This document shows, piece after piece, positions 2,881 through 44,326 of a DNA stretch of 64,000 nucleotides; the first letter of the stretch is position 1; every line of letters begins with the position of its first letter. The notes under the pieces are model-generated. The model was not told the DNA's origin, searched no databases, and saw nothing but the letters and a program-made list of their open reading frames with translations. Source of the DNA: Pseudanabaena sp. PCC 7367 (GTDB lineage: Bacteria; Cyanobacteriota; Cyanobacteriia; Pseudanabaenales; Pseudanabaenaceae); contig NC_019701.1 in NCBI RefSeq assembly GCF_000317065.1, positions 2,986,001-3,050,000 of the forward strand, read 5' to 3'. The position numbers and the translations under genes were made by a program.

Positions 2881-5800
2881 ATGTCTAGCCCTGATGCCGA
2901 AGCCCAACTCCAACAAGAACTGCGCCACCTGTTTGAGGTAGACACGCAAAAGTATTTGCAACTCTATGTCGATACCCTGGCACAGCTTAGCGATCGCACC
3001 TGGAAGGAAGATATCCAGCAGATCTATCGCTCTGTGCACACCGTCAAAGGCGGTGCAGTTACCGTTGGTGCCGAGGCAATTTTGCTAGTGGCAACCGCAT
3101 TAGAGGATTTGCTTTCCGATCTGCGCTATCTCGATCAGGCTCCTCCCCTAGCAGATGGTGAACTTAAAAATGTTTTGCAAGAGGGCGGCGAATTATTGGT
3201 GGCTAGTGTACAGCTAGAAGCCAGTAGTGCCGCGATCGTGGTGCAGCGGATCAATGATTTACGCACCAATGTACAGCAGCGTTATTTGCCGGATTGGAGC
3301 GAGCAGAGTCAGCTATATCAGGAGTTTGCCGAGCAGGGCTTTGATCTGGTGGTATTAGATCTAGACATGGCGCTAGAGCAATTGCCAGCACAGGGTGAAG
3401 TAGCTGCTGAAGTAATCGATGTGGCGCAGCAAACCATGACCCAATTGACCCAAATTGGCGCAGAGATGGAATTAGCCCAGGGCTGGCAAGCATTGTTGGC
3501 TCAAAGCAAGCATATATTCGATCGCCCTGATTGCAACCATTGGCGGCAAACCTGGCCAGAATACCTCCAGCATTTAAAGGAATCAGCCAAAAACGGTGGC
3601 AAAGAAGTAATTAGCCAAGTTTCAGAAGCAACGATTAGCGCACCAAACTTGATTCAGACCGAGGAAGCGGTTACGCCGATCGCATTTGCCCAGACTAATG
3701 CCCAGACTAATACGGCGATCGATCCAGCCGCAGCGGAATTACTAGAACTATTCCGGCTGGATACCCAAAAAGACATCAATACCTACTTTCGTACCGTTGA
3801 TAGCCTCAGCGAAACCACCTGGCAGCAGGATATCCAACAGCTATATCGCTCGATCCATACAATCAAAGGTGGTGCCGTAACTGTCGGTGCTGATGCGATT
3901 TTGCAGACTGCCAAGGTATTTGAGGATCTGCTCTCTGATCTGCGTTATGCCGAACAAGCTCCACCCCTGGCAGATGGCAACCTCCAGGAGATTTTGCAGG
4001 AATTAGGGGAATTACTGGTCAGTGCGCTGCAAATGGGAGCAGAGCGATCGCCCGATGCAACGGTGGCGCGGATTCAACAATTGCATCAGCAGGTCAGCAG
4101 TACCTACCTGGCGGAAATCGATGCACAAAAGCAACTGGCGATCGAGTTTGCGAATAATGGCTTTGATCTGGTAACGCTGGATCTAGAAATGGGTGTCGAG
4201 CAGTTGCCAGCAGCAGGGGATGTACCAGAAAAGGCGATTGAGACTGCCACCCAAACAATTGCCCAGCTCCGTGAAATTGGCGATGATCTTCAGTTTGCCA
4301 GCGATTGGCAAGCGTTACTCAATCAAGCTGAATCATTTGCCACCGACGCAAATCAAAATAATCAAACCTGGCAACAGGAATGGCCAACCAGGCTCAAACA
4401 ATTAAAAGAATGCGCCCGCAATGTCGGTAAACTACCTCAAAAATCTAAGCCAGTCACCCCAGCACTACCAGAGCCTGAGGTGCCAGCCGCTAAACCAATG
4501 GTCACCCTTACCCGGCCAACCACAAATGCCCCTGGCCAGTTGCCATTGCCGCCCAAGCCACTGCGCCAATCAGCGAAGTCGGCCACTACGCCCGAAACTA
4601 GACCTGCTGCGGAAGTCCAAATTCCAGTACCCCTGGAACGGCTCGATCGTTCTTCTCAATATTTAATCGAAACCTTGATGGCTACCAGGGCAACCCAGGG
4701 TTTTTATCAACAGGTATATGCCCAACTGGTGCCGCTAGTGGCGCTGGCTCAAGACGGGGTGCGTTATATTACTCAACTGCGGGAAGTACAGGATGATTTT
4801 GCGCTCACAGAAACCAATAATGATCCGGCTGGCAGCCCCCAGGTGGAGCGTTATCGCCAGGGCTATACGGCAATTAATCGCTTGCTGGAAATTAGCTTAC
4901 GCCTAACTGAACTAGGCGCAGAAACAGGCGAAGCCGCCCGCCGCACGATCGAAAGTATCGAATCGATCGATCGCAGTTTGCGGGGTTTACAACAAACGAT
5001 CGAAGAAAGTCGCCTGGTACCGTTTGAATCTCTTGCTTTGCGAGCCAGGGGCATCCTGCGGGATTTAACCATTCGGGTTGGCAAACCGGCACGCCTGGAA
5101 GTAATTGGTGCAAAGTTGGAATTAGACGCAGGCACCTTGCGTAATCTGGAACCAGTATTATTACATCTAATTCGGAACGCCTATGACCACGGCATTGAAG
5201 CCGCCGAGGAGCGCAGTCGTCTGGGTAAACCAGCCACAGGCAGAATCGAACTCAGTCTGGTGCGGCGCGGCAGTCTGTTTGTGCTAACGATTACTGATGA
5301 TGGGGGTGGCATTGATCCAGAGCAAATTACCAAAGCCGCGATCGCCAAGAAGCTTCCCCTCACCGATACCAGTAGCCCGGATAAACTTCTCGCTGTGATC
5401 TGTCAGCCAGGATTCACCTCCACCACTGCTGTTAGTGATATTTCGGGGCGGGGCGTAGGAATGGATGTGGTGCAAAGTCAAATCCTGGAAATGGGTGGTC
5501 AACTCAGTTTGCGTACTCAATTAAACGTGGGTAGTAGTTTTGTGATGCAGCTTCCGGTGCCACATTTATTTGTGCGCTGTATGTTGCTCCAGGCGGGCGA
5601 TCGCACCTTTGCAGTTCCTACTTCTGAAGTGTTCACCACCATGTTGCTCGGTGACCTATTGTGGCAAAAAACTACACCTTCCCAAGCGCCGCTGTATCCA
5701 ATCACGGTAATGGAAGAGACTGGACCCGTCCCGGCTCTAGACCTGAGCCAATATTGGCAAGGTATCCCCAACCCACGTAGTGCCATACCCACAGCGATCG

Positions 5801-6504
5801 CAGTGCGCACCAAGCGGCCTGATAGTTTGGAAGGGATCTGGCTGGTGGCAGATAATATGCTGGGGCAAAGTGATTTGCTCGTCAACTCATTACCAGATCC
5901 ACTGTTTGCACCGATCGGTATGATCGGCGTAAGTTTGCAATCCGACGGTAGGTTGATTCCAGTGATCGATGCGCCTGCGCTCATTGAAGCCTTGCTGAGT
6001 CAAGCCAGTGGTGATCTGGTGGTTACCCAGCCTGAGACTGAAGTTACCAAAACTGCAGCGATTGCCGGAGATATGTCAGGGCTGCGTGCTCGTCAGATTC
6101 TGGTGGTGGATGATGCTGCTTTGATGCGTCGCCGCCTGGAGGGTAGCTTGTCTGGGCAGGGCTATAGTGTGGTGACCTGTAGTGATGGTTTGGAGGCGTG
6201 GCAATGGTTACAAGCCCATGTCCCACCTGCGCTTGTGATTACAGATATTGAGATGCCAGGAATGGATGGATTTACGCTGATCGATCGCTGCCGTCAATCG
6301 GGTTTGCAAATGCCGATCCTGGTGGTTTCTTCGCGGTTAGCGGAAGAATGGTCAAAGGAAACGCAACGATTGGGGGCGACGGATTATTTAACCAAGGGGT
6401 TCACCACGCCAGATCTGCTCGAAAAAGTTGCTACTCTAATTGAAGAAGCTGCTGAGCAATCTGAGCAATTGGGCGATCGCCAACCCGCACCGCTGAATTC
6501 GTGA
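2881..6504 (+). CDS. CheA-like hybrid histidine kinase, two HPt domains and C-terminal receiver
   Basis: Central kinase of the chemosensory operon (PilL/HmpE/PixL type). Order: HPt 1 with phospho-accepting His53 in YRSVHTVKGG; HPt 2 with His326 in YRSIHTIKGG; Pro-rich linker (about 515-575); dimerisation helices; HATPase with N-box HLIRNAYDHG (761 onward), G1 DDGGG (806 onward) and G2 GRGVGMD (about 857); CheW-like regulatory domain (about 885-1035); receiver domain with VDD at 1076-1078 and phospho-acceptor Asp1122 in TDIEMPGMDG. The N-terminal 230 residues are a tandem duplication: both copies share TWxxDIQQxYRSxHTxKGGA, DLLSDLRY, QAPPLADG and a C-terminal WQALL-to-LKE(S/C)A(K/R)N stretch. 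It follows the receptor by 210 bp on the same strand. The role is certain at family level; the stimulus (light, surface contact or chemical) cannot be read. Confidence 0.92.
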   Translation: MSSPDAEAQLQQELRHLFEVDTQKYLQLYVDTLAQLSDRTWKEDIQQIYRSVHTVKGGAVTVGAEAILLVATALEDLLSDLRYLDQAPPLADGELKNVLQEGGELLVASVQLEASSAAIVVQRINDLRTNVQQRYLPDWSEQSQLYQEFAEQGFDLVVLDLDMALEQLPAQGEVAAEVIDVAQQTMTQLTQIGAEMELAQGWQALLAQSKHIFDRPDCNHWRQTWPEYLQHLKESAKNGGKEVISQVSEATISAPNLIQTEEAVTPIAFAQTNAQTNTAIDPAAAELLELFRLDTQKDINTYFRTVDSLSETTWQQDIQQLYRSIHTIKGGAVTVGADAILQTAKVFEDLLSDLRYAEQAPPLADGNLQEILQELGELLVSALQMGAERSPDATVARIQQLHQQVSSTYLAEIDAQKQLAIEFANNGFDLVTLDLEMGVEQLPAAGDVPEKAIETATQTIAQLREIGDDLQFASDWQALLNQAESFATDANQNNQTWQQEWPTRLKQLKECARNVGKLPQKSKPVTPALPEPEVPAAKPMVTLTRPTTNAPGQLPLPPKPLRQSAKSATTPETRPAAEVQIPVPLERLDRSSQYLIETLMATRATQGFYQQVYAQLVPLVALAQDGVRYITQLREVQDDFALTETNNDPAGSPQVERYRQGYTAINRLLEISLRLTELGAETGEAARRTIESIESIDRSLRGLQQTIEESRLVPFESLALRARGILRDLTIRVGKPARLEVIGAKLELDAGTLRNLEPVLLHLIRNAYDHGIEAAEERSRLGKPATGRIELSLVRRGSLFVLTITDDGGGIDPEQITKAAIAKKLPLTDTSSPDKLLAVICQPGFTSTTAVSDISGRGVGMDVVQSQILEMGGQLSLRTQLNVGSSFVMQLPVPHLFVRCMLLQAGDRTFAVPTSEVFTTMLLGDLLWQKTTPSQAPLYPITVMEETGPVPALDLSQYWQGIPNPRSAIPTAIAVRTKRPDSLEGIWLVADNMLGQSDLLVNSLPDPLFAPIGMIGVSLQSDGRLIPVIDAPALIEALLSQASGDLVVTQPETEVTKTAAIAGDMSGLRARQILVVDDAALMRRRLEGSLSGQGYSVVTCSDGLEAWQWLQAHVPPALVITDIEMPGMDGFTLIDRCRQSGLQMPILVVSSRLAEEWSKETQRLGATDYLTKGFTTPDLLEKVATLIEEAAEQSEQLGDRQPAPLNS

Positions 6505-11810: not shown

Positions 11811-12533
11811 TTAGTGGTTTCCTTTGATGAAGTCCCAGGTATCGAATAGTATTTTTAAGCTTGGCAAATGTCCTGTCTCATTACAGCGTTTTCTTAAGGC
11901 ATCTAAATAAGCTTTGCTGCAGACTTCTCCAGGCTTCTTTTTTTTGTATTTTAATTCACACTCTTTCAAATAAGAGGTCAAATAATTCATGTGATATTTT
12001 GCTTTCTTACGTTTAGATGACCCGTCCGGCATTGCTTCAGGGTCTCTATTCATGATGTCGAAAAATGACATAAAGTTCTTAAAATTATGGGATTTTCCTG
12101 TTGGCAGGCCAGATGCAATATCTGTATTACCAAGCAACCAGGTTTCAAAGCAGCAATACTGAACAATGATAAAGATATTGCAAAATCCTCCTAGACCAAT
12201 TTCATTTATCAGCGGGTATAAATGTGACTTAACGATACTAAGACGCTTCTGGTAAGACTCATCTTCAGAATCCAAGCAAATAAAAAAGTAATCTACATTC
12301 TGGTAATCCTTTATATCTTTTAAGCAAGCTTTTAGTCTTGTATAACCGGAAGTCATGCCTGGTTTTTTAACCAGATTTGGGAACCCTCTCCCAGAGACAA
12401 TTCGGCAAGAGTTCCCATTTGTCATATCCTCAGGGCGAATTACGAAATCAATGTTCGGGAAAGTATGCTTTAACCATGATCTATATACTTGGATCTCAGT
12501 CGCCTCACCCTCTACAAGGAAAAGGAAATTCAT
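11811..12533 (-). CDS. TOPRIM-like protein, partner of the ATPase
   Basis: A 240-residue protein, second gene of a two-gene unit: its ATG overlaps the ATPase stop codon (ATGA, 12530-12533), implying coupled translation. The N-terminus MNFLFLVEGEATE has the first TOPRIM-type acidic motif (Glu8, Glu13), followed by a strand and acidic cluster YFFICLDSEDE (Asp88, Glu90, Asp91) and later a CCFETWLLGN segment like the FExWLL found in RloB/DUF4276-type proteins that pair with ATPases. The C-terminal third is Lys/Arg-rich (KRKKAKYH, KYKKKKPG), suggesting nucleic acid contact. By analogy it may be a nuclease or primase-like effector held or triggered by the ATPase. Family assignment (DUF4276-like, RloB-like or AriB-like) is not settled by eye. 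AT-rich, without HIP1, unlike its neighbours. Confidence 0.6.
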   Translation of the reverse strand: MNFLFLVEGEATEIQVYRSWLKHTFPNIDFVIRPEDMTNGNSCRIVSGRGFPNLVKKPGMTSGYTRLKACLKDIKDYQNVDYFFICLDSEDESYQKRLSIVKSHLYPLINEIGLGGFCNIFIIVQYCCFETWLLGNTDIASGLPTGKSHNFKNFMSFFDIMNRDPEAMPDGSSKRKKAKYHMNYLTSYLKECELKYKKKKPGEVCSKAYLDALRKRCNETGHLPSLKILFDTWDFIKGNH

Positions 12534-13705
12534 GCAACGCTATCCTCAAATTCTAGGAAATCAATCAAGAGAGTGAATTTATCCAGGCTCGAAGCGGTAT
12601 GAAGCTCTGTTATTGAAGTCGCTTTTCTGACCTTGATTTTATTGCCGTCTCTAGAAACTATTTGCCAATTTTCCCAGGGAATATTATTGATTATGTATGG
12701 ATGGTGGCTAGTAATAATAAACTGCATTTCTTCTAAAGACTGATCAAGAACGAAATCAGTAATATCAGACATACAATTGATCCCAAGACTATTTTCGAAA
12801 TCATCAATACAAATAACCGATTTTTCGGGCGCAAAAATGGCTTCAACCATATAAATGAGTGTTCTATACATGCCTGAAGAAATTCGTCTTTGCGGAACCC
12901 AGTTCTCTTCTTCCTTGATCTCAAATGTTAGAACAAGCTTATCTTGCAACCTTTGTTTTTTGACCCTTATATCTTCAACCGTGTCAAATACATTCTGATA
13001 ATTGAATTTCAATTCATTAAATTTATCTGGGAATGCTTCTTGTATTGTGTACGCTTTGAGAACAGGTGGAGCTTCGGCTAGAAATGCTAGAACCTCCTTT
13101 TCCTTTACCTCAAAATCTACATCATCATGATTATCACCTGATACAGTTGAACTATCGTCAGAAACTTGTGAATCATTATTATTGGAAGGCTCAGGTATGC
13201 TGAGAATCCTTTCCTGAATGATCTCATTAAAAACAAATCTATCAAAACCCTGGCTTATGGGAGCAATTGTTTTTTCTTCAGCAAGTAGGGCAATCACACT
13301 TTCTGAACGTTTTAATTTGGGAAGTATTGAATCACCTAGCTTTGATTTCTCTTGGCTCCTAATTAGTATCTCTACCTGCTTATCTAAGTCTATTTTTACT
13401 ACCCTTTCAAACGTAATATTGGTAAGTTCAGATTTTTTAGCTGCTGACAATTTATCCTTTATAGCGGCACTCTTTAGTTCCCATTGGTAATTGTTTCCAT
13501 CGTGTGAGAAGTCAATGCACCAATCTATTTCATCTAAAGGAACACTTCGTCCCTTCGCAACACGAGACAATAGTTTAAGTGCCTGTATTATGGTGGTCTT
13601 GCCAGCTCCAGAAACACCAACCAACAAATTCAAATCATCAAACTCGATCGGTTCGATGTGCCAATTCTCCTTATGATTGCTATATCTAAACTTTTTAATT
13701 CTCAT
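12530..13705 (-). CDS. AAA/ABC-type ATPase of a probable defence pair
   Basis: A 391-residue ATPase of the AAA15/AAA21 (OLD/RecF-like ABC) class. Walker A is GVSGAGKTT (residues 30-38), preceded by the usual strand FDDLNLLVG; the ABC-like signature region is RISSGMYRTLIYM; Walker B is VICIDDFEN (about 297-305) and an H-loop follows in IITSHHPYIIN. An acidic Asn/Ser/Asp-rich insertion (about 171-207) separates the lobes. ATPases of this form drive RloAB/AbiL, PARIS (AriA-AriB) and similar anti-phage pairs, where they sense infection and control a TOPRIM or nuclease partner; here the TOPRIM-like gene overlaps its stop codon. No weak motif is missing, so it should be active. Composition is AT-rich with only one CGATCG core, suggesting acquisition from elsewhere. 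Confidence 0.8.
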   Translation of the reverse strand: MRIKKFRYSNHKENWHIEPIEFDDLNLLVGVSGAGKTTIIQALKLLSRVAKGRSVPLDEIDWCIDFSHDGNNYQWELKSAAIKDKLSAAKKSELTNITFERVVKIDLDKQVEILIRSQEKSKLGDSILPKLKRSESVIALLAEEKTIAPISQGFDRFVFNEIIQERILSIPEPSNNNDSQVSDDSSTVSGDNHDDVDFEVKEKEVLAFLAEAPPVLKAYTIQEAFPDKFNELKFNYQNVFDTVEDIRVKKQRLQDKLVLTFEIKEEENWVPQRRISSGMYRTLIYMVEAIFAPEKSVICIDDFENSLGINCMSDITDFVLDQSLEEMQFIITSHHPYIINNIPWENWQIVSRDGNKIKVRKATSITELHTASSLDKFTLLIDFLEFEDSVA

Positions 13706-31939: not shown

Positions 31940-32351
31940 TCAAACCCACCAGTCCACAACAATCACTGTAATTTAACCGCTTTACAGTTATTAAGCTCAA
32001 CCGCTTACACCTGTATTTTTATAAAATCTAAATCTAGGCTTGGTATTTCTTCGGACGGGATTAGACAATTACCCACGATCGAATTGCTTAGATTTAATCA
32101 CACATTTACAAACAAAACATCTAACATCTAGTCCTGGCAGCTTGTGCATTTACTAGTATATTTAAAAGCTCAGATTTAGATATATTAGATATACCTAATC
32201 CACACCAGAGTTTAGGGAAATATAACCTAAACTTACTATTCAAGTCCAATTTGAGCAAGCTGAAGTATCAATAATAGTTTGATTAATCATTCCCTGCGAT
32301 CGAATTGTTTCAGCATTGCTTGAAGATTTACGCCAATTTCATGTCAACGCT
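31940..32351. other. 412-base divergent spacer
   Basis: Separates the small protein from the lipoate ligase-like gene. AT-rich with short repeats of ATTTAGATATA type around 32170-32200, typical of promoter DNA; nothing else recognised. Confidence 0.4.
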
Positions 32352-33293
32352 ATGTCAGCTATTCCATCCCCTGATTTGTCCTGGCGACTGATTCCCTATC
32401 AAAATGCAGCAGCGGGTTTGAATATGGCGATCGATCGCTATTGCCTAAATGCGGCGACTCAATCTATTCAGGTTAACGATGATTTAGAACCAAAGCGGGA
32501 GAATGATCGAGCTGTAAAGGATATCAGTAGGGCTGAAACAGGGCGATCGATGCTCCGTTTTTATGGTTGGCAGAGGCCGACAATCTCGCTTGGTCATCAC
32601 CAGCGGCGCATTCCTGAGCATTGGTCCGAGCTAGCGCAAGAGTTGGATTTAGCGATGGTACGTCGTCCCAGTGGGGGGCGGGCGGTGTTGCACCACCATG
32701 ATTTAACCTATGCGATCGTGACCAGGGCTCCATTTCCTAACCGCGACCAAACCTATCGCCATATGTGTGAGTTTTTAATTAAGGGATTGGCCAAGTTGGG
32801 GATTGAAGTGAATTATGGCGCGGCCAAACGTAACTATATGCATAATCCCAGTTGTTTTAATACGGCCACCAATGCCGACCTGGTGGTGGCGGATGGGCGC
32901 AAGCTGGTTGGTAGTGCCCAGGTTTATGCTCATGGTTGGCTGCTGCAACATGGCACGATCGCAATTCAACCTGACTATGCGCTATTAGAAAAAGTATTTA
33001 GAACTAAGGTGCCGATCGTGGGGGTGGCGGAGCTATTGAAGTGCGAGGCGATCGAGGCGATCGAAGAGAATGCTAATAGTTTAAATCCAAGACATGGAGC
33101 GATCGCTAACTCGTCAACTAGTTTATTGACTGATTTACAAGCCAAGCTAATTAAGGTGCTTTCTGGGGCTGCCAGTGAGCATTTTCAGGTTGAATTAGTG
33201 TCTGAACCGCTGATGGAGCAAGAAATGGGGACGATCGCCGCCCTTGAGCAAGGCTTTAGTGAGGGTCTATTAGCCCAGTCGATTAGCGTTTGA
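32352..33293 (+). CDS. lipoate-protein ligase A-like (LplA/BPL fold)
   Basis: Lipoyl or biotinyl ligase fold protein, probably attaching lipoate or octanoate to 2-oxoacid dehydrogenase and glycine cleavage domains. Signature segments: GLNMAIDRYCL, LRFYGWQRPTISLGHHQ, MVRRPSGGRAVLHHHDLTYAIV (the RRxxGGGAVxH-type loop, here RRPSGGRAVLHH), CFNTATNADLVVADGRKLVGSAQ (conserved Lys) and LLQHGTIAIQ. Length (313 residues from ATG 32352; the TTG at 32316 would add 12) is that of LplA. The C-terminus beyond residue 240 is less conserved and Ser-rich. Substrate and cofactor need testing. Confidence 0.85.
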   Translation: MSAIPSPDLSWRLIPYQNAAAGLNMAIDRYCLNAATQSIQVNDDLEPKRENDRAVKDISRAETGRSMLRFYGWQRPTISLGHHQRRIPEHWSELAQELDLAMVRRPSGGRAVLHHHDLTYAIVTRAPFPNRDQTYRHMCEFLIKGLAKLGIEVNYGAAKRNYMHNPSCFNTATNADLVVADGRKLVGSAQVYAHGWLLQHGTIAIQPDYALLEKVFRTKVPIVGVAELLKCEAIEAIEENANSLNPRHGAIANSSTSLLTDLQAKLIKVLSGAASEHFQVELVSEPLMEQEMGTIAALEQGFSEGLLAQSISV

Positions 33294-33398: not shown

Positions 33399-36300
33399 TT
33401 AAAGTTGGGCTTTAATCGTTGTCATCATCTTGTTTACCTGCTGTGACCAGGTGAGTTGTTGCATAAACCCGGCGGCGGCTTGTCCCTTGGCCTGGGCGCG
33501 ATCGCGGTGATTAAAAATATCTTCCAGTGCTGCCACCGCTTCATCAACCTCTGACTCGCCCCAACCCTCAATACCACGAATATAGTCGGGCGGGTTCACG
33601 ATCGATCGCTGTGACTGTAACGAATAGCAGTGATTTTGATTAATAATATCCAGGTGTCCTGTATTGGCCGAAATCACAGTAGGAATACCGCAGGCTAAGC
33701 ATTCCATTGCCACCAGATTTGTGCCCCCCTCACAACGATTTGGGAAAATCGCCGCATCCGCCTCTTGTACCACCCTGGGCATCAGGTAATTGGGTACTAT
33801 GCCCATGTCAAGGAAAGAACCAGCCGGTAAGCCATTGGCCTGCAACCAGGCGCTAATATTCAAGCGGCGATCGCTACCTACTTCCGGTAGTCCAACCACA
33901 TTACCTGTGGCTTCAAGCCCACGCATGAACTGCGGCCAGTGATTATGCCAGGCAGTGATCAGCAAGGCTTCGGGATGACGCGCTTGAAAAATCTTGAACG
34001 CAGCCACCACAATATCCTGGGCTTTGCGATATTCCAGCTTACCGCCAGAGAAAACTATAAAGCGATCGCGCCAGGCAGTGGATTTGAATGAGATAGGATG
34101 GTGCAATGTTGGATCAATGCCTTGCAGCACGGTATGCACATTGTTGATGCCATAACCTTTCAATACCTCCGCATTCCAGCTTGATCCGGCTAGAATCAAA
34201 TCAAAAGTATTGGCCTTGGCGATCGCTGCCGCGTCTAAATATGTATCTTCAAAGAAAATAAAGCCCACATTCCGATCGCTACCCACCTTGTTCAAATCCG
34301 CCCCAGCCAAGTTATTACCCAATGCATGAACAATCGGCACCCCCAGATCAAGTTGCTCCGTACTACTGATCTCAATCACCCGTTGCAGTCGTTGCTGTTG
34401 ATTGAGGTATGGCTTGAGCAATGCGTAATGTAGCGGATTGATGAACTGTTGATCGAGATTACTTGGTGCTGATAGCAGACAGGGGGCAAACTCAGCGTGG
34501 CGAGATAGATTCAGAGCCAGGTTTAGACCAAAGATGCCCCAACCGCTGGTGATGCCGATCGGCCAGCTAATGGCAATTGTCTGCTTATTGGCATTGTGAC
34601 CGCTAATGATCTGGTTGATCAGATCGGCTTCGGCAGTGTTTTTATTAATTTCGTTAGCTTGATCTGCTGGGGAGGCGGTGGCGATCGATTCAATTGGGGC
34701 GATCGTGATACCGATCGGTTCTACGGGCATAACCCTGGGTTGAAGTTGGATTACTTGATTGCTCTGATGATTGCTTTGATGATTGTTCTGATGATTACTC
34801 TGATCGGACTGGGAATCGCCAGGATCAAGATCATTATTGGCGATCGGTTCTTGCTCTATTTCTACTTGTGGCTGATCTAAATTTTCTTGAGCTTCTTTTG
34901 GCTCAGATGGTTTGGTCGAGCTAGATTGCTGATCTGTTTGTGGCGCTGGCTCTATTTGACTGGTATCGATCGGATCGATCGGCTTGCTTACTTTGACCGG
35001 TGCGGATTGTGCGGGCAAAGCTGAGCTTGTTGATGCTTGACTGGGCAGTAGTTCTGAGGACTTTAATGGTTCCAAGGGCGATCGCGCCAATAACTCTGGA
35101 GCATTGACAACCTCGCTCAAATTAGTAGCAATGCGCTGGATTAATAGCTGCCAGTCTTCACCATATTCAGCTTGGCGGCAGAGCTTAACCTGTGGATACC
35201 AGAGCGTATCTTCAGTTTCCCTTTGCCAGAACCACAATTCCGGCACATAGGGCAGCAACACCCACACTGGTTTGCCCAATGCTCCGGCCATATGCACCGT
35301 GGTATTACTAACTGAAATTACCAGATCGACGGCGGCCACTTGGGCGGCAAAATCATCTAAGCTGGCCATCTGATCGATCGCCGGGTCATCAAAGATCTCT
35401 ACGCCGTGGCGATCGCGCATCTCCTCTAATTTTTCTTGCCAATCGCCATATTGCAAATTAACCAATGTCACGCCTGGTGTAGTTAGGATCGGCAACCATT
35501 CTTCCAGTCTAGGCAAGCGTTTAGCACGATTACTACTATGCCAGGAAATGCCAATAATTAGCTTGCGGGTGGATGATTGCTGGTTTGTTTGCTTATTTGG
35601 TTGAATTTGATTTGAGGCCAAAGAATCGCGGTGCGGCTTGAGTGACAGATAGCGATCGCGGCAGATTTGAGTCAAACCTGGATCAGCTTGCAAATAAGCT
35701 TGGGGCTGGCCAAAACTAGCCCGATCGGGACGCAGCGATCGCCCCAGACTGCCCATCGGCAAAACGGATTTAGCATTCTGGTAACAAAGGCTCACCCGAT
35801 CAGCGCGGGACACAAATTGCATATTTTCAAGGTGGCCAAAGGAACGACGGAACAGCGGCAATAATCGCTCCTGGCAAGCCACCACCAGGCGATCGCCTAG
35901 ATTTCTTGCCTCCGCTAGCATACTGGCATAGATAATCTCATCACCTACGCCCTGCTCGCCCAGAATCAGGATTGTTTGATTACTCGGAGTCCCGTCAAAT
36001 ATTGGCAGAGCCAGAAAATTAAGGTAAGCGAAGGTATCACGATTACGATCGCGTAACCGCCATTCATATTCGACAAAACCAGCTTCAAACTTACCCTGCG
36101 CCAGCAAGACCAGCCCTAGATTTTCATGGCCGTCTACTGTCTCTGGTTGGATCACGATCGCTTGCCGGAAGTAGGCGATCGCCAGGTCAAAGTCACCACG
36201 ATAGCGACAGATACTACCCAAACTGAGCAGATCATCATATTCGGGCTTGATCGCCAGAGCTTGTTGATAATGGCTCAGCGCTTCATTTAGCTGGTTGTTT

Positions 36301-39300
36301 TGCCACAATGCCTGTCCCATATTTTTATGGATTTCTGCCAGGTCGCGCCGCAGCTCCAAAGCTTTGGTTAAATTAGCGATCGCTGGCTCTAATTGACCTT
36401 CTTGGCGCAGCAGATTACCCAGATTGTTATAGGCGATCGCAAAATCTGGCTGGAGTTGGATCGCTGTTTCATAGTTGCCGATCGCTTCATTGACAAGCCC
36501 TTGCCGTGCTTGCAGATCCGCCAGGTAAAAATATGCCAGTGAGCTAGGTTGTAATTTAATCAGCTCTTGATAACAGGCAATTGCGGCTTCAATCCGATCG
36601 AGTGATTGCAAGGTTTGCCCCAAAGCATGACGGGCATCGGTATTTTGCGGCTGACGATCGATCGCGCCTTGATAATAGTGGGCGGCAGCAGCCAGATAAC
36701 CACCTTCGCGGTAGGCATTGCCCAAATTAAAATACGCACTGGCATATTCTGGATTGATAGCGATCGCCCGATGTAAATAGCCCATACCGCGATCGAATTG
36801 CTTTTGCTGGCAGGCAATTATGCCGAGTAGGTGCAAGGCATCAAAATAGTCGGGATGCTGCTGTAAGATTTGCTGGCAGGCGATTGTAGCGTCATGGTGA
36901 CGATTGGCCTGGAAGTAGGTGATTGCTCGTTTGAAGAGGGCGGCAGCGCCAGAGGATGAAGTGCGATCGCTTCGTTGCGCTTGTTGTTGAATTGTATGAC
37001 TGATTGTCCAGGCGGCGGCAAATTCCTGGATCGCCTTACTTATTTCTGTAACTACTGCTTGCCAATCACCCGGATTGGGTTGCCGAAATAGCCGCGCCGT
37101 CGGATACCAGATACTATCTTTGCGCTCCAGTTGCCAGCGCCAATCGGGGGCAAAGGGCAGCAGCACCCATACTGGTTTGGCCAATGCCCCGGCCAGATGC
37201 ACCACCATCGTATCGATCGAGATGACTAGATCCAGTTGGGCGATCGCGGCAGCAGTGTCGGTTAAATCCAATAGCCGATCGCTGAGATTCCTTACTCTGG
37301 GCTGGTTTGACAATAGCTCTAAATCGGCCGCGTCAAGCTCTTGTTGCAGAATATAAAAATCTATATGCTCCACCTCAAATAGTGATTGAAAGATGGCCAA
37401 TGGGCAGGAGCGATTGCCACTGGAAGAACTGCGGGAAGTGGTTGCCCAGAAGATGCCAACTTTTAAATTACCTGTGGATCTAGCTAAAGGATCAGGCGAT
37501 CGTGATCTTCTGCCTCTTGTGGGGGCAATTTCTTGATCAAGCTCTAAATCAAAATCATTCGCAGCCGTTAGATAGGGGACTTGATTGGGAACAGTTGTCA
37601 AAGTTATGCCCAGCATATGCGCCAGACTCATCAATGGGGCGCGGAGATCGAAATGGGGGGTAGGATCGCTTGGTAGGGAAACCTGATCAATCCCATCGCA
37701 GTTGTTTAATAACCGCGCCAAACCATCATGATTGGCTTTCACCACAATCCGATCGCCCCTTTGTTTAGCGATCGGCACGAAGCGCAAAAACTGGATCGTA
37801 TCGCCTAAACCCTGCTCTGTATGGATCAGCAGCGTTTTGCCAGGGAAGGGCTGACCATCCCACAAAGGCTGTTTGGGTTCGCGGCTGGGGTCTTGCAATC
37901 GCATCGCCTCAGTCTGCCAGCGCCATTCATATTCCCGCAAGCCATTGCTATAGTCGCCACTCAGCAAGAAAGCGATTCCTAAATTCTGATGTGCTTCAGC
38001 ATAGTTGGGCTTAAGCTCGATCGCCCTGCGTTGGTAGTCGATCGCCGCCGCAAGATCACCCTGCAATCGTTTCAAAACACCCACACACACATAGGCTTGC
38101 ACAAAAGAATGATTGAGCGCGATCGCCCGTTGATGTTGCTCGATCGCTGCTGTCCATTTCCCTTGCGCGGTTAAGGCCAAACCCAGATGATATAGGGCTT
38201 CAACATAGTCGGGTTGAATGGCGATCGCCCGTTCATAGTAATCGATCGCTTGCGCTAATTGTCCCTGCTGTTTATGGATCACCCCCAGATGATTCAGGGC
38301 TTGGGCATGATTGGGGTTTTGATTGAGCACCCTTTGATATTGCTCGATCGCTTGCTCTTGTTCACCGATCTGCCCCAGAGCAACACCAAGCAAATAATTG
38401 GCTTCAATGTGTTCGGGTTGTTGATTCAGGAATTGACGATAAAGAGCGATCGCTGCATTAATCTGATCAGCCTGGTGGTTGGCGATCGCATTTTTCAGCA
38501 GGGCGGCAAGTTCTGGCGTTGTGGCGCGAGCAATTTGCGATTCGGGAGGTGGCTCAGTTGTTGGATCGCCAGGAGCAATATTAATCGCCCTAACTGTTGC
38601 CTCAATTTGAACAGGTGAATCAGGTTCTGGATTGTCGGCAGGCTCGTTGCCAGGATCACCACCAATATTAATTGGGTAATTGTAATTACTATTGGCATTG
38701 TCATTAGAGTCAATCGTTTGATCTGCGCCGTTATCGTCAAACTCAAGATCCAAACTGCCAGGGATTACATCATCAGGATTATTAATATTCGCATCAGCTT
38801 GTGCCCCAGATTGTGCTCCGACCAAATGCTGTTGATTTAAACTATCAAGATCCGGATCGGCATCTACCGCATCGATCGCACCAGATTGATTAACCAGATC
38901 GAGCGATTCTGCTAGCGGTTCATTCCTTGATGCTTGCTCAGACTCATAGCCACTATCTACCATCGTTGCAGTTGTAGGTGAAGCGATCGGTGATGCATCA
39001 GAGCGATCGTAATTGGTGGGATTGTCTACCTCGTTGCCATCAACTGCGTCAGTTGAATCGATCGAGTTAGACCCATCAGCTATATCAGTATCAGTGGTAT
39101 CAACGGCATCAACCCTATCAGGTTCGTCAATTTCAATTACTTGATCACCTTTAATTACTTGATCATCAACCGGGATATTCGCAGATAGATCAATTGTATC
39201 TATGCCGATCGAATCGTTAGTATCTGTAACATTTGCGGCTAGAGGATGTAGCGGTAGCTCCGGCGTAAAGCGCTCAGGATTAGCGATCAACTGCTCTAGC

Positions 39301-41411
39301 TCAGCCCTGACTTGAGTGATTACGGGCTGCCAATCGCCAAACTCAACCTGCCGAAACAATCGCATCGTCGGATACCAGGGACTATCATCACGCCCCAAAA
39401 ACCAACGCCAATCCGGTGCAAAGGGCAATAATAACCACACTGGCTTTGCCATCGCTCCGGCCAGGTGCGCCACCGCCGTATCCACACAAATAATTAAATC
39501 TAGTTGTTCAATTAAGGCCGCCGTATCCGCGAAATCCTCAATTCGATCGCTCAAATCGATTACCTTCTCCTGCCAGCCCAATTCTTCGATATCCGCAGCA
39601 TTACCACCCACCTGCAAGCTGTAAAACTCAATCAGTTGGTTATTTTCTTGAGCATTGCGATCGCTAGCTAATTCCAACAGCGGCGCCAATAATGCCAAGG
39701 GAATCGACTTGGCCTCATACTGCCACTGGGAAATATCCACACTTGCGGTATGTCCACTCGCCCAGACAATGCCAATTTTAAATGTTGGTAATCCTGGCCG
39801 ATCGGCTTGATCTACACCTAAATCTAAACCTAAATTAGGGTGATCGCCCGGTTCAGAATTTGCCCATAGATAGGGAACCTGATCAGGAATAGTGGCCAGC
39901 TCAATTCCCAACACCCTCGGTAAACTCATCAACTGAATATAAACATCAAAATCCGGCAGTGGCGCTTGTTCATCTTGCACTAGTTCCAGCCCCTCGATCG
40001 TCTGGAATAGCCTCACCAAGGGCGATCGACATTGCAAAATAATCCGGCCACCCTGCGCCAATAGCATCGGCAAAAACCGCACAAACTGGATCGCATCGCC
40101 AAAACCTTGTTCCGGCAGAATCAAGATTGTTTTATTGGTTAAGTCTGAACCATCCCAGACTAATTGGGGAAAGTTATGCACGGGCGCATATTTCAAGCGT
40201 TGCCGCCATTCATACTCAACCAATCCCTCAGTAAAGTTGCCAAGTTGCAACAATGCCATGCTCAAGCCAAAGTGGGCATTGACATAATCTGGTTGTAGCG
40301 CGATCGCCTGACGGTATGCCGCGATCGCCTGATCGGGTTGGGCTTGCTTAAGGTATACAGTAGCCAGGGCATTGTGGGCGCTGACATAATTGGGCTTGGT
40401 TTGGATTGCCCGTTGATAAAACTCCGTTGCGGTTGTGAATTGGTAAAGCTGGCTATGGGCTTCCCCCAGGTTGTGATAGGCTTCCGCTAGATTGGGATTG
40501 ATCGCCAGAGCCTTGTGATAGTTTGCGATCGCGGTTTCTGGTTCCCCTTGCCGCATCTGCGCCGCCCCCAAATTGCAATAGGCATTGGCATAGTTAGGAT
40601 TCAGGGCAATTGCCTTTTGATAATGGGCGATCGCCAGCCCCAGGTTATCCTGCTCCGCCGCAATTAACCCCAATACCATATAGGTACTGGCATGATTAGG
40701 ATTATGTTGAAGGGCTTGCTGGCAATTGGCCAGGGCTTCGAGCAGGTTCTTTTGCCGAAATTGGGTCATCCCCAGATTGGCATAGGCATCGGCATAGTTG
40801 GGCATCAGCTCGATCGCTCGTTCATAGCTACTAGCCGCTTGATCCAGCAGGTCACGATTGCTCATCACCCCACCCAAACCATTATGGGCTTCGGCTAAGT
40901 TGGGATTAAGCTCAATTGCAGCGCGATAGGATTGCTCAGCCTGATCTAACTGTCCGGCGCTGAGTTGCGCATTTCCCAGTGCAACCTGAATCTCGATGCG
41001 ATCGGGATTTATGGCGATTGCCCGCTCATAACTGGCGATCGCCTCAGTTAATCTGCCCACCTGCCGATAGGCCAAGCCGAGGTAATAATGGGCTTCTTTG
41101 TGGTCGGGCTGAAGCTGGATTACTCTTTCATAGCTAGCGATCGCTAAGCCAAACCGAGCTTCCATAAAGAGACTGTTACCCAACTGCAAATGTGCGTCAA
41201 CCAGGTTGGCATCTGATTCAACTGCCCGTTGATAATATTGTTGCGCTTCCAGCTTTCGTCCCTGAGCCTGCAAAGCTCTGGCCATTAAATAACAGGCGAT
41301 CGGTTGGTGGGGATTTTGCTTCAGGATTTTGCGACACAGGGCGATCGCTTGGGCAAATTGCTGCTTGGCAATGTGGGTTTCGGCTTGCTGGAGTCTGGTT
41401 TCAACTGACAT
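33399..41411 (-). CDS. giant TPR/glycosyltransferase protein, three GT9-like modules plus GT4-like domain
   Basis: One 2670-residue frame. Three times over, a tetratricopeptide block is followed by a GT9 (heptosyltransferase)-like domain: TPR 1-420 and GT 424-700; TPR 960-1190 and GT 1190-1470; TPR 1494-1800 and GT 1807-2100 (approximate). Each GT module has a LILPEQG(F/L/V)GD-type first strand and a later DLxI(C/S)(V/I)DTxxxHLAGAxxKPVW(L/V)LLP segment. An acidic Asn/Ser/Asp-rich linker (about 715-930) and a Gln/Pro-rich linker (2110-2250) separate modules. The C-terminal 400 residues are GT4-like: FSGGKLEYRKAQDIVV and EGGTNLVAMECLACGIPTVIS. No signal peptide, so probably cytosolic, perhaps for sheath or surface-glycan synthesis. 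Whether GT9-like domains are catalytic is unknown. Confidence 0.85.
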   Translation of the reverse strand: MSVETRLQQAETHIAKQQFAQAIALCRKILKQNPHQPIACYLMARALQAQGRKLEAQQYYQRAVESDANLVDAHLQLGNSLFMEARFGLAIASYERVIQLQPDHKEAHYYLGLAYRQVGRLTEAIASYERAIAINPDRIEIQVALGNAQLSAGQLDQAEQSYRAAIELNPNLAEAHNGLGGVMSNRDLLDQAASSYERAIELMPNYADAYANLGMTQFRQKNLLEALANCQQALQHNPNHASTYMVLGLIAAEQDNLGLAIAHYQKAIALNPNYANAYCNLGAAQMRQGEPETAIANYHKALAINPNLAEAYHNLGEAHSQLYQFTTATEFYQRAIQTKPNYVSAHNALATVYLKQAQPDQAIAAYRQAIALQPDYVNAHFGLSMALLQLGNFTEGLVEYEWRQRLKYAPVHNFPQLVWDGSDLTNKTILILPEQGFGDAIQFVRFLPMLLAQGGRIILQCRSPLVRLFQTIEGLELVQDEQAPLPDFDVYIQLMSLPRVLGIELATIPDQVPYLWANSEPGDHPNLGLDLGVDQADRPGLPTFKIGIVWASGHTASVDISQWQYEAKSIPLALLAPLLELASDRNAQENNQLIEFYSLQVGGNAADIEELGWQEKVIDLSDRIEDFADTAALIEQLDLIICVDTAVAHLAGAMAKPVWLLLPFAPDWRWFLGRDDSPWYPTMRLFRQVEFGDWQPVITQVRAELEQLIANPERFTPELPLHPLAANVTDTNDSIGIDTIDLSANIPVDDQVIKGDQVIEIDEPDRVDAVDTTDTDIADGSNSIDSTDAVDGNEVDNPTNYDRSDASPIASPTTATMVDSGYESEQASRNEPLAESLDLVNQSGAIDAVDADPDLDSLNQQHLVGAQSGAQADANINNPDDVIPGSLDLEFDDNGADQTIDSNDNANSNYNYPINIGGDPGNEPADNPEPDSPVQIEATVRAINIAPGDPTTEPPPESQIARATTPELAALLKNAIANHQADQINAAIALYRQFLNQQPEHIEANYLLGVALGQIGEQEQAIEQYQRVLNQNPNHAQALNHLGVIHKQQGQLAQAIDYYERAIAIQPDYVEALYHLGLALTAQGKWTAAIEQHQRAIALNHSFVQAYVCVGVLKRLQGDLAAAIDYQRRAIELKPNYAEAHQNLGIAFLLSGDYSNGLREYEWRWQTEAMRLQDPSREPKQPLWDGQPFPGKTLLIHTEQGLGDTIQFLRFVPIAKQRGDRIVVKANHDGLARLLNNCDGIDQVSLPSDPTPHFDLRAPLMSLAHMLGITLTTVPNQVPYLTAANDFDLELDQEIAPTRGRRSRSPDPLARSTGNLKVGIFWATTSRSSSSGNRSCPLAIFQSLFEVEHIDFYILQQELDAADLELLSNQPRVRNLSDRLLDLTDTAAAIAQLDLVISIDTMVVHLAGALAKPVWVLLPFAPDWRWQLERKDSIWYPTARLFRQPNPGDWQAVVTEISKAIQEFAAAWTISHTIQQQAQRSDRTSSSGAAALFKRAITYFQANRHHDATIACQQILQQHPDYFDALHLLGIIACQQKQFDRGMGYLHRAIAINPEYASAYFNLGNAYREGGYLAAAAHYYQGAIDRQPQNTDARHALGQTLQSLDRIEAAIACYQELIKLQPSSLAYFYLADLQARQGLVNEAIGNYETAIQLQPDFAIAYNNLGNLLRQEGQLEPAIANLTKALELRRDLAEIHKNMGQALWQNNQLNEALSHYQQALAIKPEYDDLLSLGSICRYRGDFDLAIAYFRQAIVIQPETVDGHENLGLVLLAQGKFEAGFVEYEWRLRDRNRDTFAYLNFLALPIFDGTPSNQTILILGEQGVGDEIIYASMLAEARNLGDRLVVACQERLLPLFRRSFGHLENMQFVSRADRVSLCYQNAKSVLPMGSLGRSLRPDRASFGQPQAYLQADPGLTQICRDRYLSLKPHRDSLASNQIQPNKQTNQQSSTRKLIIGISWHSSNRAKRLPRLEEWLPILTTPGVTLVNLQYGDWQEKLEEMRDRHGVEIFDDPAIDQMASLDDFAAQVAAVDLVISVSNTTVHMAGALGKPVWVLLPYVPELWFWQRETEDTLWYPQVKLCRQAEYGEDWQLLIQRIATNLSEVVNAPELLARSPLEPLKSSELLPSQASTSSALPAQSAPVKVSKPIDPIDTSQIEPAPQTDQQSSSTKPSEPKEAQENLDQPQVEIEQEPIANNDLDPGDSQSDQSNHQNNHQSNHQSNQVIQLQPRVMPVEPIGITIAPIESIATASPADQANEINKNTAEADLINQIISGHNANKQTIAISWPIGITSGWGIFGLNLALNLSRHAEFAPCLLSAPSNLDQQFINPLHYALLKPYLNQQQRLQRVIEISSTEQLDLGVPIVHALGNNLAGADLNKVGSDRNVGFIFFEDTYLDAAAIAKANTFDLILAGSSWNAEVLKGYGINNVHTVLQGIDPTLHHPISFKSTAWRDRFIVFSGGKLEYRKAQDIVVAAFKIFQARHPEALLITAWHNHWPQFMRGLEATGNVVGLPEVGSDRRLNISAWLQANGLPAGSFLDMGIVPNYLMPRVVQEADAAIFPNRCEGGTNLVAMECLACGIPTVISANTGHLDIINQNHCYSLQSQRSIVNPPDYIRGIEGWGESEVDEAVAALEDIFNHRDRAQAKGQAAAGFMQQLTWSQQVNKMMTTIKAQL

Positions 41412-42637: not shown

Positions 42638-44326
<1,689 letters not shown>

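Follow-up and report, generated by a model that had tools for sequence, protein, structure and literature searches.

The filamentous cyanobacterium Pseudanabaena sp. PCC 7367 encodes a protein of 2670 residues in which three modules, each made of a TPR array and a GT9-like glycosyltransferase domain, are followed by one GT4 domain, and which belongs to a patchily distributed family of the form (TPR-GT9)n-GT4, with n ranging from 1 to 7. The single TPR-GT9 module is already known; no paper describing a multimodular TPR-GT9 or (TPR-GT9)n-GT4 fusion was found in the open-access text searched. The explanation that we place first, and to which we give an even chance, is a cytoplasmic machine that would glycosylate secreted or surface proteins at several sites, with FlmG/SPINDLY-like TPR-GT9 modules and a terminal GT4 of retaining GT-B type.

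The gene lies in a window of 64,000 nucleotides (contig NC_019701.1, positions 2,986,001 to 3,050,000), which is the whole stretch of DNA analysed and to which unprefixed coordinates refer. It forms one uninterrupted ORF with an ATG start (33399-41411; Table 1), and was recovered by a genome search as a single intact frame of 2673 codons. An earlier sequence-only reading had placed here a 2670-residue protein with repeated TPR-GT modules and a GT4-like end; this is confirmed, the gene being on the minus strand. A chance or frame artefact is ruled out by the single frame, the internal homology and the occurrence of the same architecture in complete genomes. The neighbouring genes, read by inspection, are a lipoate-ligase-like gene (32316-33293) and GroEL (42662-44326), so that the locus names no pathway; no sheath or polysaccharide gene adjoins the ORF.

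Table 1. Layout of the 2670-residue protein and its coding positions in the window
Feature	Position	Strand	Basis
ORF (TPR-GT9)x3-GT4, 2670 aa	33399..41411	-	one open frame
TPR array 1, residues 1-395	40227..41411	-	Pfam TPR and home-made TPR profile
GT9-like domain 1, residues 412-712; EQGFGD 434-439, DTAVAH 644-649	39276..40178	-	Pfam GT9 25.8 bits; conserved sites intact
Acidic Asp/Asn-rich linker, residues 713-965	38517..39275	-	16% Asp over 716-965
TPR array 2, residues 966-1165	37917..38516	-	TPR profiles; helices in model, pLDDT mostly 97-98
GT9-like domain 2, residues 1182-1465; EQGLGD 1199-1204, DTMVVH 1400-1405	37017..37868	-	GT9 20.1 bits; model pLDDT 93.7
TPR array 3, residues 1486-1785	36057..36956	-	Pfam TPR and home-made TPR profile
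GT9-like domain 3 (GT9b), residues 1791-2110; EQGVGD 1819-1824, SNTTVH 2035-2040	35082..36041	-	hhalign to domain 1
Linker, residues 2111-2270, mostly predicted disordered	34602..35081	-	pLDDT about 30-40 over most
GT4 domain, residues 2271-2670	33402..34601	-	Pfam and structure

The TPR arrays are recognized by Pfam TPR_11 (E=1e-131) and comprise about 20 units according to the home-made profile; an OGT-like asparagine ladder is unclear, Asn occupying position 6 in 3/9, 0/4 and 3/7 repeats. Pairwise, the three glycosyltransferase modules are 27-43% identical (E=1e-24 to 1e-68). Against the Pfam GT9 cut-off of 22 bits, module 1 scores above and module 2 just below, while module 3 is at noise level (E=0.12); profile comparison of module 3 with module 1 (hhalign) gave a probability of 100 and E=4e-61. 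A heptosyltransferase I model matches module 2 (E=3e-7), and family-wide 51 of 52 modules match the GT9 profile at E<=0.01, the best at 1e-8. The nearest relative of module 3, or GT9b, is a 1099-residue protein of the same genome (about 50%), and a module-3 search of 292 cyanobacterial genomes returned nothing beyond this genome at E<=1e-45. Of the three GT9 modules claimed earlier, all are real glycosyltransferase modules, but the third belongs to a different subfamily rather than repeating the first two. A GT41 identity was rejected, since the ORF has no Glyco_transf_41 match and all PF13844 hits of the genome lie elsewhere. A PDB sequence search with module 1 (phmmer) gave no useful match, the GT9 profile retrieved from the PDB only WaaC/WaaF and unrelated chains (E about 0.3 and above), and hhalign of the GT9 modules against GT9 and GT41 proteins of the own genome was weak (probability <=28), with GT9 better than GT41. 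The C-terminal domain matches both PF00534 (E=4e-9, 36.8 bits) and the GT4-conflict model PF20706 (E=1e-9, 38.1 bits, cut-off 26). Since a PDB search with the GT4 profile gave no sequence at E<=0.001, the GT4 assignment rests on Pfam and structure; the invariant Glu pair of GT4 falls in EGGTNLVAME, with eight residues between, compared with the E-x7-E motif of the family.

The structure predicted for module 2 (TPR plus GT; mean pLDDT 93.7, pTM 0.91) places SPINDLY and OGT at the top of the Foldseek list (E=4e-17 and 6e-13). Superposition of either on the whole module is poor (rmsd above 10 A), and the match is owed largely to the TPR part. The model of GT9b with GT4 is weaker (mean pLDDT 73.9), and its structural list is filled by GT4 matches, with no independent fold match for GT9b. 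Its GT4 part has a GT-B fold of GT4 type and aligns with BshA (Z 30.9, rmsd 3.1, 330 residues), as well as with HepE of Anabaena (Z 30.3) and PimA (Z 29.3), all three within rmsd 3.0-3.4 over 328-331 residues.

The EQGxGD Asp together with both the Asp and the His of DTxxxH (D439, D644 and H649 equivalents), presumed to be catalytic as in GT9 enzymes, are jointly kept in 192 of the 199 aligned family modules. Alignment gaps account for three of the seven exceptions, and module 3 of the 2670-residue protein is another. Because of this conservation, the modules look like working enzymes rather than a scaffold. Modules 1 and 2 are intact at these sites, module 1 having Lys at a position that is Arg in 99%, so that the loss of the nucleotide-sugar site in all copies, which the sequence-only reading had named as fatal to an enzymatic assembly-line role, is not seen here or across the family. 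In module 3 the GD Asp and the His are kept and Ser-Asn replaces the Asp-Thr of DTxxxH. The 1099-residue protein has the same change (ISISNTAVH), which makes it look like a subfamily trait rather than decay; other natural TPR-GT9 proteins also vary at this site (ISSCTAPAH). To judge from these residues, the activity of module 3 is uncertain.

The own genome (a chromosome of 4.56 Mb and an element of 0.33 Mb) also encodes an 1825-residue paralogue, TPR-GT9-TPR-GT9-GT4, which shares 47-57% identity, part by part, with modules 1 and 2 and GT4 of the 2670-residue protein, together with the 1099-residue TPR-GT9b-TPR protein and single TPR-GT9 proteins of 430 and 521 residues. Among 386 cyanobacterial genomes the GT4 domain is present in 17 (12/143 genera), the longest frame having 4169 codons. 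Scanning 84,980 species genomes yielded 389 relatives, and the best 80 of the 389 were used. By number of full-length GT9 modules, the complete frames ending in this GT4 divide into 12 with one, 7 each with two and with three, 3 with four, 22 with five and a single frame each with six and with seven; a further 26 GT4 frames contain none. The architecture, previously considered unusual, is thus not unique to the 2670-residue protein and has relatives in other bacteria. A single GT4 is the last domain of every complete frame. Five modules are found in Microcoleus, Tychonema and Trichodesmium, and seven in one cyanobacterium. Some low counts come from draft-genome genes that stops or frameshifts interrupt (e.g., L067, L074, L081), and some MAG loci are split by stops; an assembly artefact behind the module number is nevertheless unlikely, because counts of 2, 3, 5 and 7 modules also occur in genomes that are complete or in a single contig (own chromosome, L077, G027). 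Among the closest matches, a sample that biases the apparent spread, most fused forms come from filamentous members of the Oscillatoriales, Leptolyngbyales, Desertifilales and Pseudanabaenales. Other genera of the Pseudanabaenaceae have one or five fused modules, or none.

TPR-GT9 and GT4 also occur as adjoining separate genes (L119, L130, L058). The Hormoscilla locus (L058, 3-12829) has six full TPR-GT9 modules and one more cut by the contig end, and after the six-module frame GT4 follows as a gene of its own, in fusion with GT2 and methyltransferase domains. In Chthonobacter albigriseus (L122, 12702-17819 and 18411-21194) a three-module TPR-GT9 frame without GT4 adjoins a frame with RTX repeats and a GT4 gene of opposite orientation. 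Another multi-glycosyltransferase TPR fusion is present in the own genome (L019, 2915-7834), where a TPR protein of 1639 residues with two Glyco_transf_41 (SPINDLY/OGT-like) domains adjoins a single TPR-GT9 gene.

In the tree of GT9 domains, modules 1 and 2 pair with modules 1 and 2 of the paralogue, respectively, and module 3 groups with the 1099-residue protein. The simplest reading is that the 2670- and 1825-residue proteins would descend from a two-module ancestor and that the former gained its third module from elsewhere. Across 20 Microcoleus-type species, the modules sort by position into five clades, one per position (support 0.99-1.0), so that in these species the positions are old and not interchangeable. 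Modules of other lineages are often nearest to modules of the same protein (6/6 in L050, 5/7 in L040), a pattern that indicates probable repeated duplication.

In plasmid records of the Azospirillaceae, the GT4 homologue (mostly 37-39% identical to the GT4 studied here) is part of islands that also contain type I secretion genes in 6/6 annotated records, and TPR-GT9 genes are present in the same islands. GT4 is directly downstream of a giant RTX protein (2233-3961 codons) in three records, and genes for GDP-mannose dehydratase or GDP-fucose synthase occur in four. Two of the Azospirillaceae loci (L151, 6540-14795; L153, 3-11885) encode strongly repetitive giant RTX proteins adjoining GT4/TPR-GT9 genes. 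In A. thermophilum 218 bp separate a TPR-GT9 gene from a flagellar hook-type gene, and in Rhodovastum the distance from a TPR-GT9 gene to flagellin is 4.5 kb; the single TPR-GT9 genes of Paraburkholderia, Methylovirgula and Granulicella have no secretion, RTX or flagellar neighbours, and none that is telling. Some cyanobacterial relatives have GT2 or methyltransferase genes alongside. Taken together, these neighbourhoods are moderate evidence for protein glycosylation before secretion, and point to secreted-protein glycosylation at least as much as to glycan assembly. The own genome has many RTX-bearing frames and gmd; gmhA gave no match at E<=0.001, with the E. coli control detected, so that ADP-heptose is an unlikely donor.

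The protein-glycosylation reading draws on these Azospirillaceae islands and on the FlmG-like flagellar settings, on the rank of SPINDLY and OGT among the matches of module 2, on the retention of key residues, on the adjacency of TPR-GT9 and GT4 where they are split, and on the RTX-rich own genome with gmd and without detected gmhA. Heavy glycosylation is known for oscillin, an RTX protein of gliding Phormidium (PMC3034196). The same reading is weakened because no RTX or export gene adjoins the 2670-residue ORF or the Microcoleus-type genes, because the Azospirillum records are distant and related to each other, hence not independent, and because the TPR-GT9 genes of three genera lack such neighbours. 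The SPINDLY/OGT match is borne largely by the TPR, and TPRs bind many ligands. Mechanistically, each TPR solenoid would dock a polypeptide acceptor, as the FlmG TPR does for flagellins, the attached GT9-like domain would transfer a sugar from a nucleotide donor, and GT4 would add a further sugar, probably capping or extending the first. Several modules per chain could serve many sites of a long repetitive acceptor together, or add sugars in turn. The likeliest acceptors would be large proteins that are secreted or displayed on the surface, for example RTX/S-layer-type glycoproteins of gliding filaments, with the sugars added ahead of export.

A glycan assembly line, in which the modules add defined sugars one after another to an oligosaccharide, lipid-linked or free, that GT4 then caps, so that module number and order would set the sequence of a sheath, slime or LPS glycan, is less likely than protein glycosylation, and we regard it as a minority possibility of about one chance in a few. 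It accords with the one GT4 that is always last, the five positionally distinct clades in 20 species, the GT2 and methyltransferase genes beside some relatives, the mostly filamentous Oscillatoriales, Leptolyngbyales and Pseudanabaenales hosts and the existence of single-chain multi-module glycan polymerases such as WbdA (PMC11231755). However, no Wzx/Wzy- or ABC-type polysaccharide export genes were recognized among the ORFs flanking the gene in the window or the recurrent neighbours of relatives, the same-protein resemblance of modules in L050 and L040 suggests recent duplication of like modules, and TPR is usual in protein-directed glycosyltransferases. The positional conservation and the filamentous hosts fit the multi-step surface-glycosylation role proposed from the sequence, but a processive glycan assembly goes beyond what these observations support. 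The stricter version, a template-like line in which the order and number of up to seven TPR-GT9 modules and a GT4 cap would encode the defined oligosaccharide that they build or install, by analogy with modular polyketide synthases, is more doubtful still.

Two further explanations appear improbable to a similar degree. The protein could be mainly a scaffold or binding protein with partly decayed GT domains, as the missing Asp-Thr of module 3 and the long disordered linkers might suggest; the near-universal retention of key residues speaks against this, as does the Ser-Asn change, which is common to the 1099-residue protein at a site where other TPR-GT9 proteins vary. Alternatively, unrelated protein glycosyltransferases, each acting on its own target, could have been fused just for co-expression, which would agree with the separate TPR-GT9 genes of the same genome and with a module 3 brought in from another subfamily; yet TPR-GT9 is repeatedly linked to the same GT4, fused or adjoining, which argues for a shared pathway. 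Very improbable is a biological-conflict (immune effector) protein, as the name of the PF20706 model and its above-cut-off score would have it and as GT4 domains are predicted effectors in multicellular bacteria (PMC8195603), given that the general GT4 model scores equally, the GT4 has no PADLOC match, no STAND NTPase, caspase or other conflict partner was noticed in the loci, and long-term positional conservation in 20 species is atypical of fast-evolving conflict genes.

Among known systems, FlmG of Caulobacter is a flagellin O-glycosyltransferase composed of TPR and GT-B, in which the TPR domain binds the acceptor (PMC7591256). By domain layout it is similar in joining an N-terminal TPR to GT-B in one soluble protein, and single TPR-GT9 relatives are found beside flagellar genes, but FlmG has one module (596 residues), no GT4 and flagellin as acceptor, and no flagellar acceptor is known for Pseudanabaena sp. 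PCC 7367. The single TPR-GT9 proteins (NCBI "tetratricopeptide repeat-containing glycosyltransferase family protein") share the module, with 178-334 bits to the GT9 profile built here, but have only one and no fused GT4. SPINDLY and O-GlcNAc transferase (GT41) likewise have a TPR superhelix directly followed by the GT-B catalytic part, but belong to another GT family. Polymerases of the WbdA/WbbB type also carry several GT modules per chain; WbdA has two or three mannosyltransferase modules, each making one linkage (PMC11231755). In contrast to the up to seven TPR-linked modules here, the examples cited have two or three and are tied to O-antigen assembly and export. For the GT9 heptosyltransferases WaaC/WaaF the DTxxxH region aligns, but similarity is mostly confined to it, and gmhA was undetected in the own genome. 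The family combines up to eight GT domains per chain, in constant order and lineage-specific number, and offers a natural series of 1 to 7 modules for asking if module number sets the glycan pattern. It occurs in the ecologically important genera Microcoleus and Trichodesmium, and is a candidate for the enzyme that glycosylates surface proteins (e.g., oscillin) in gliding cyanobacteria, a modification long known but unexplained.

Elsewhere in the window, an overlapping gene pair on the minus strand (11811-13705) encodes an AAA ATPase of 391 residues, which matches NsnB/AbiLi/AriA in PADLOC, and a partner of 240 residues, which weakly matches AbiLii; this is possibly an AbiL- or PARIS-like defence pair. 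On the plus strand, a CheA-like gene (2881-6504), whose product by eye begins with two similar Hpt-type regions and ends in a receiver, lies downstream of an MCP-like gene (49-2670).
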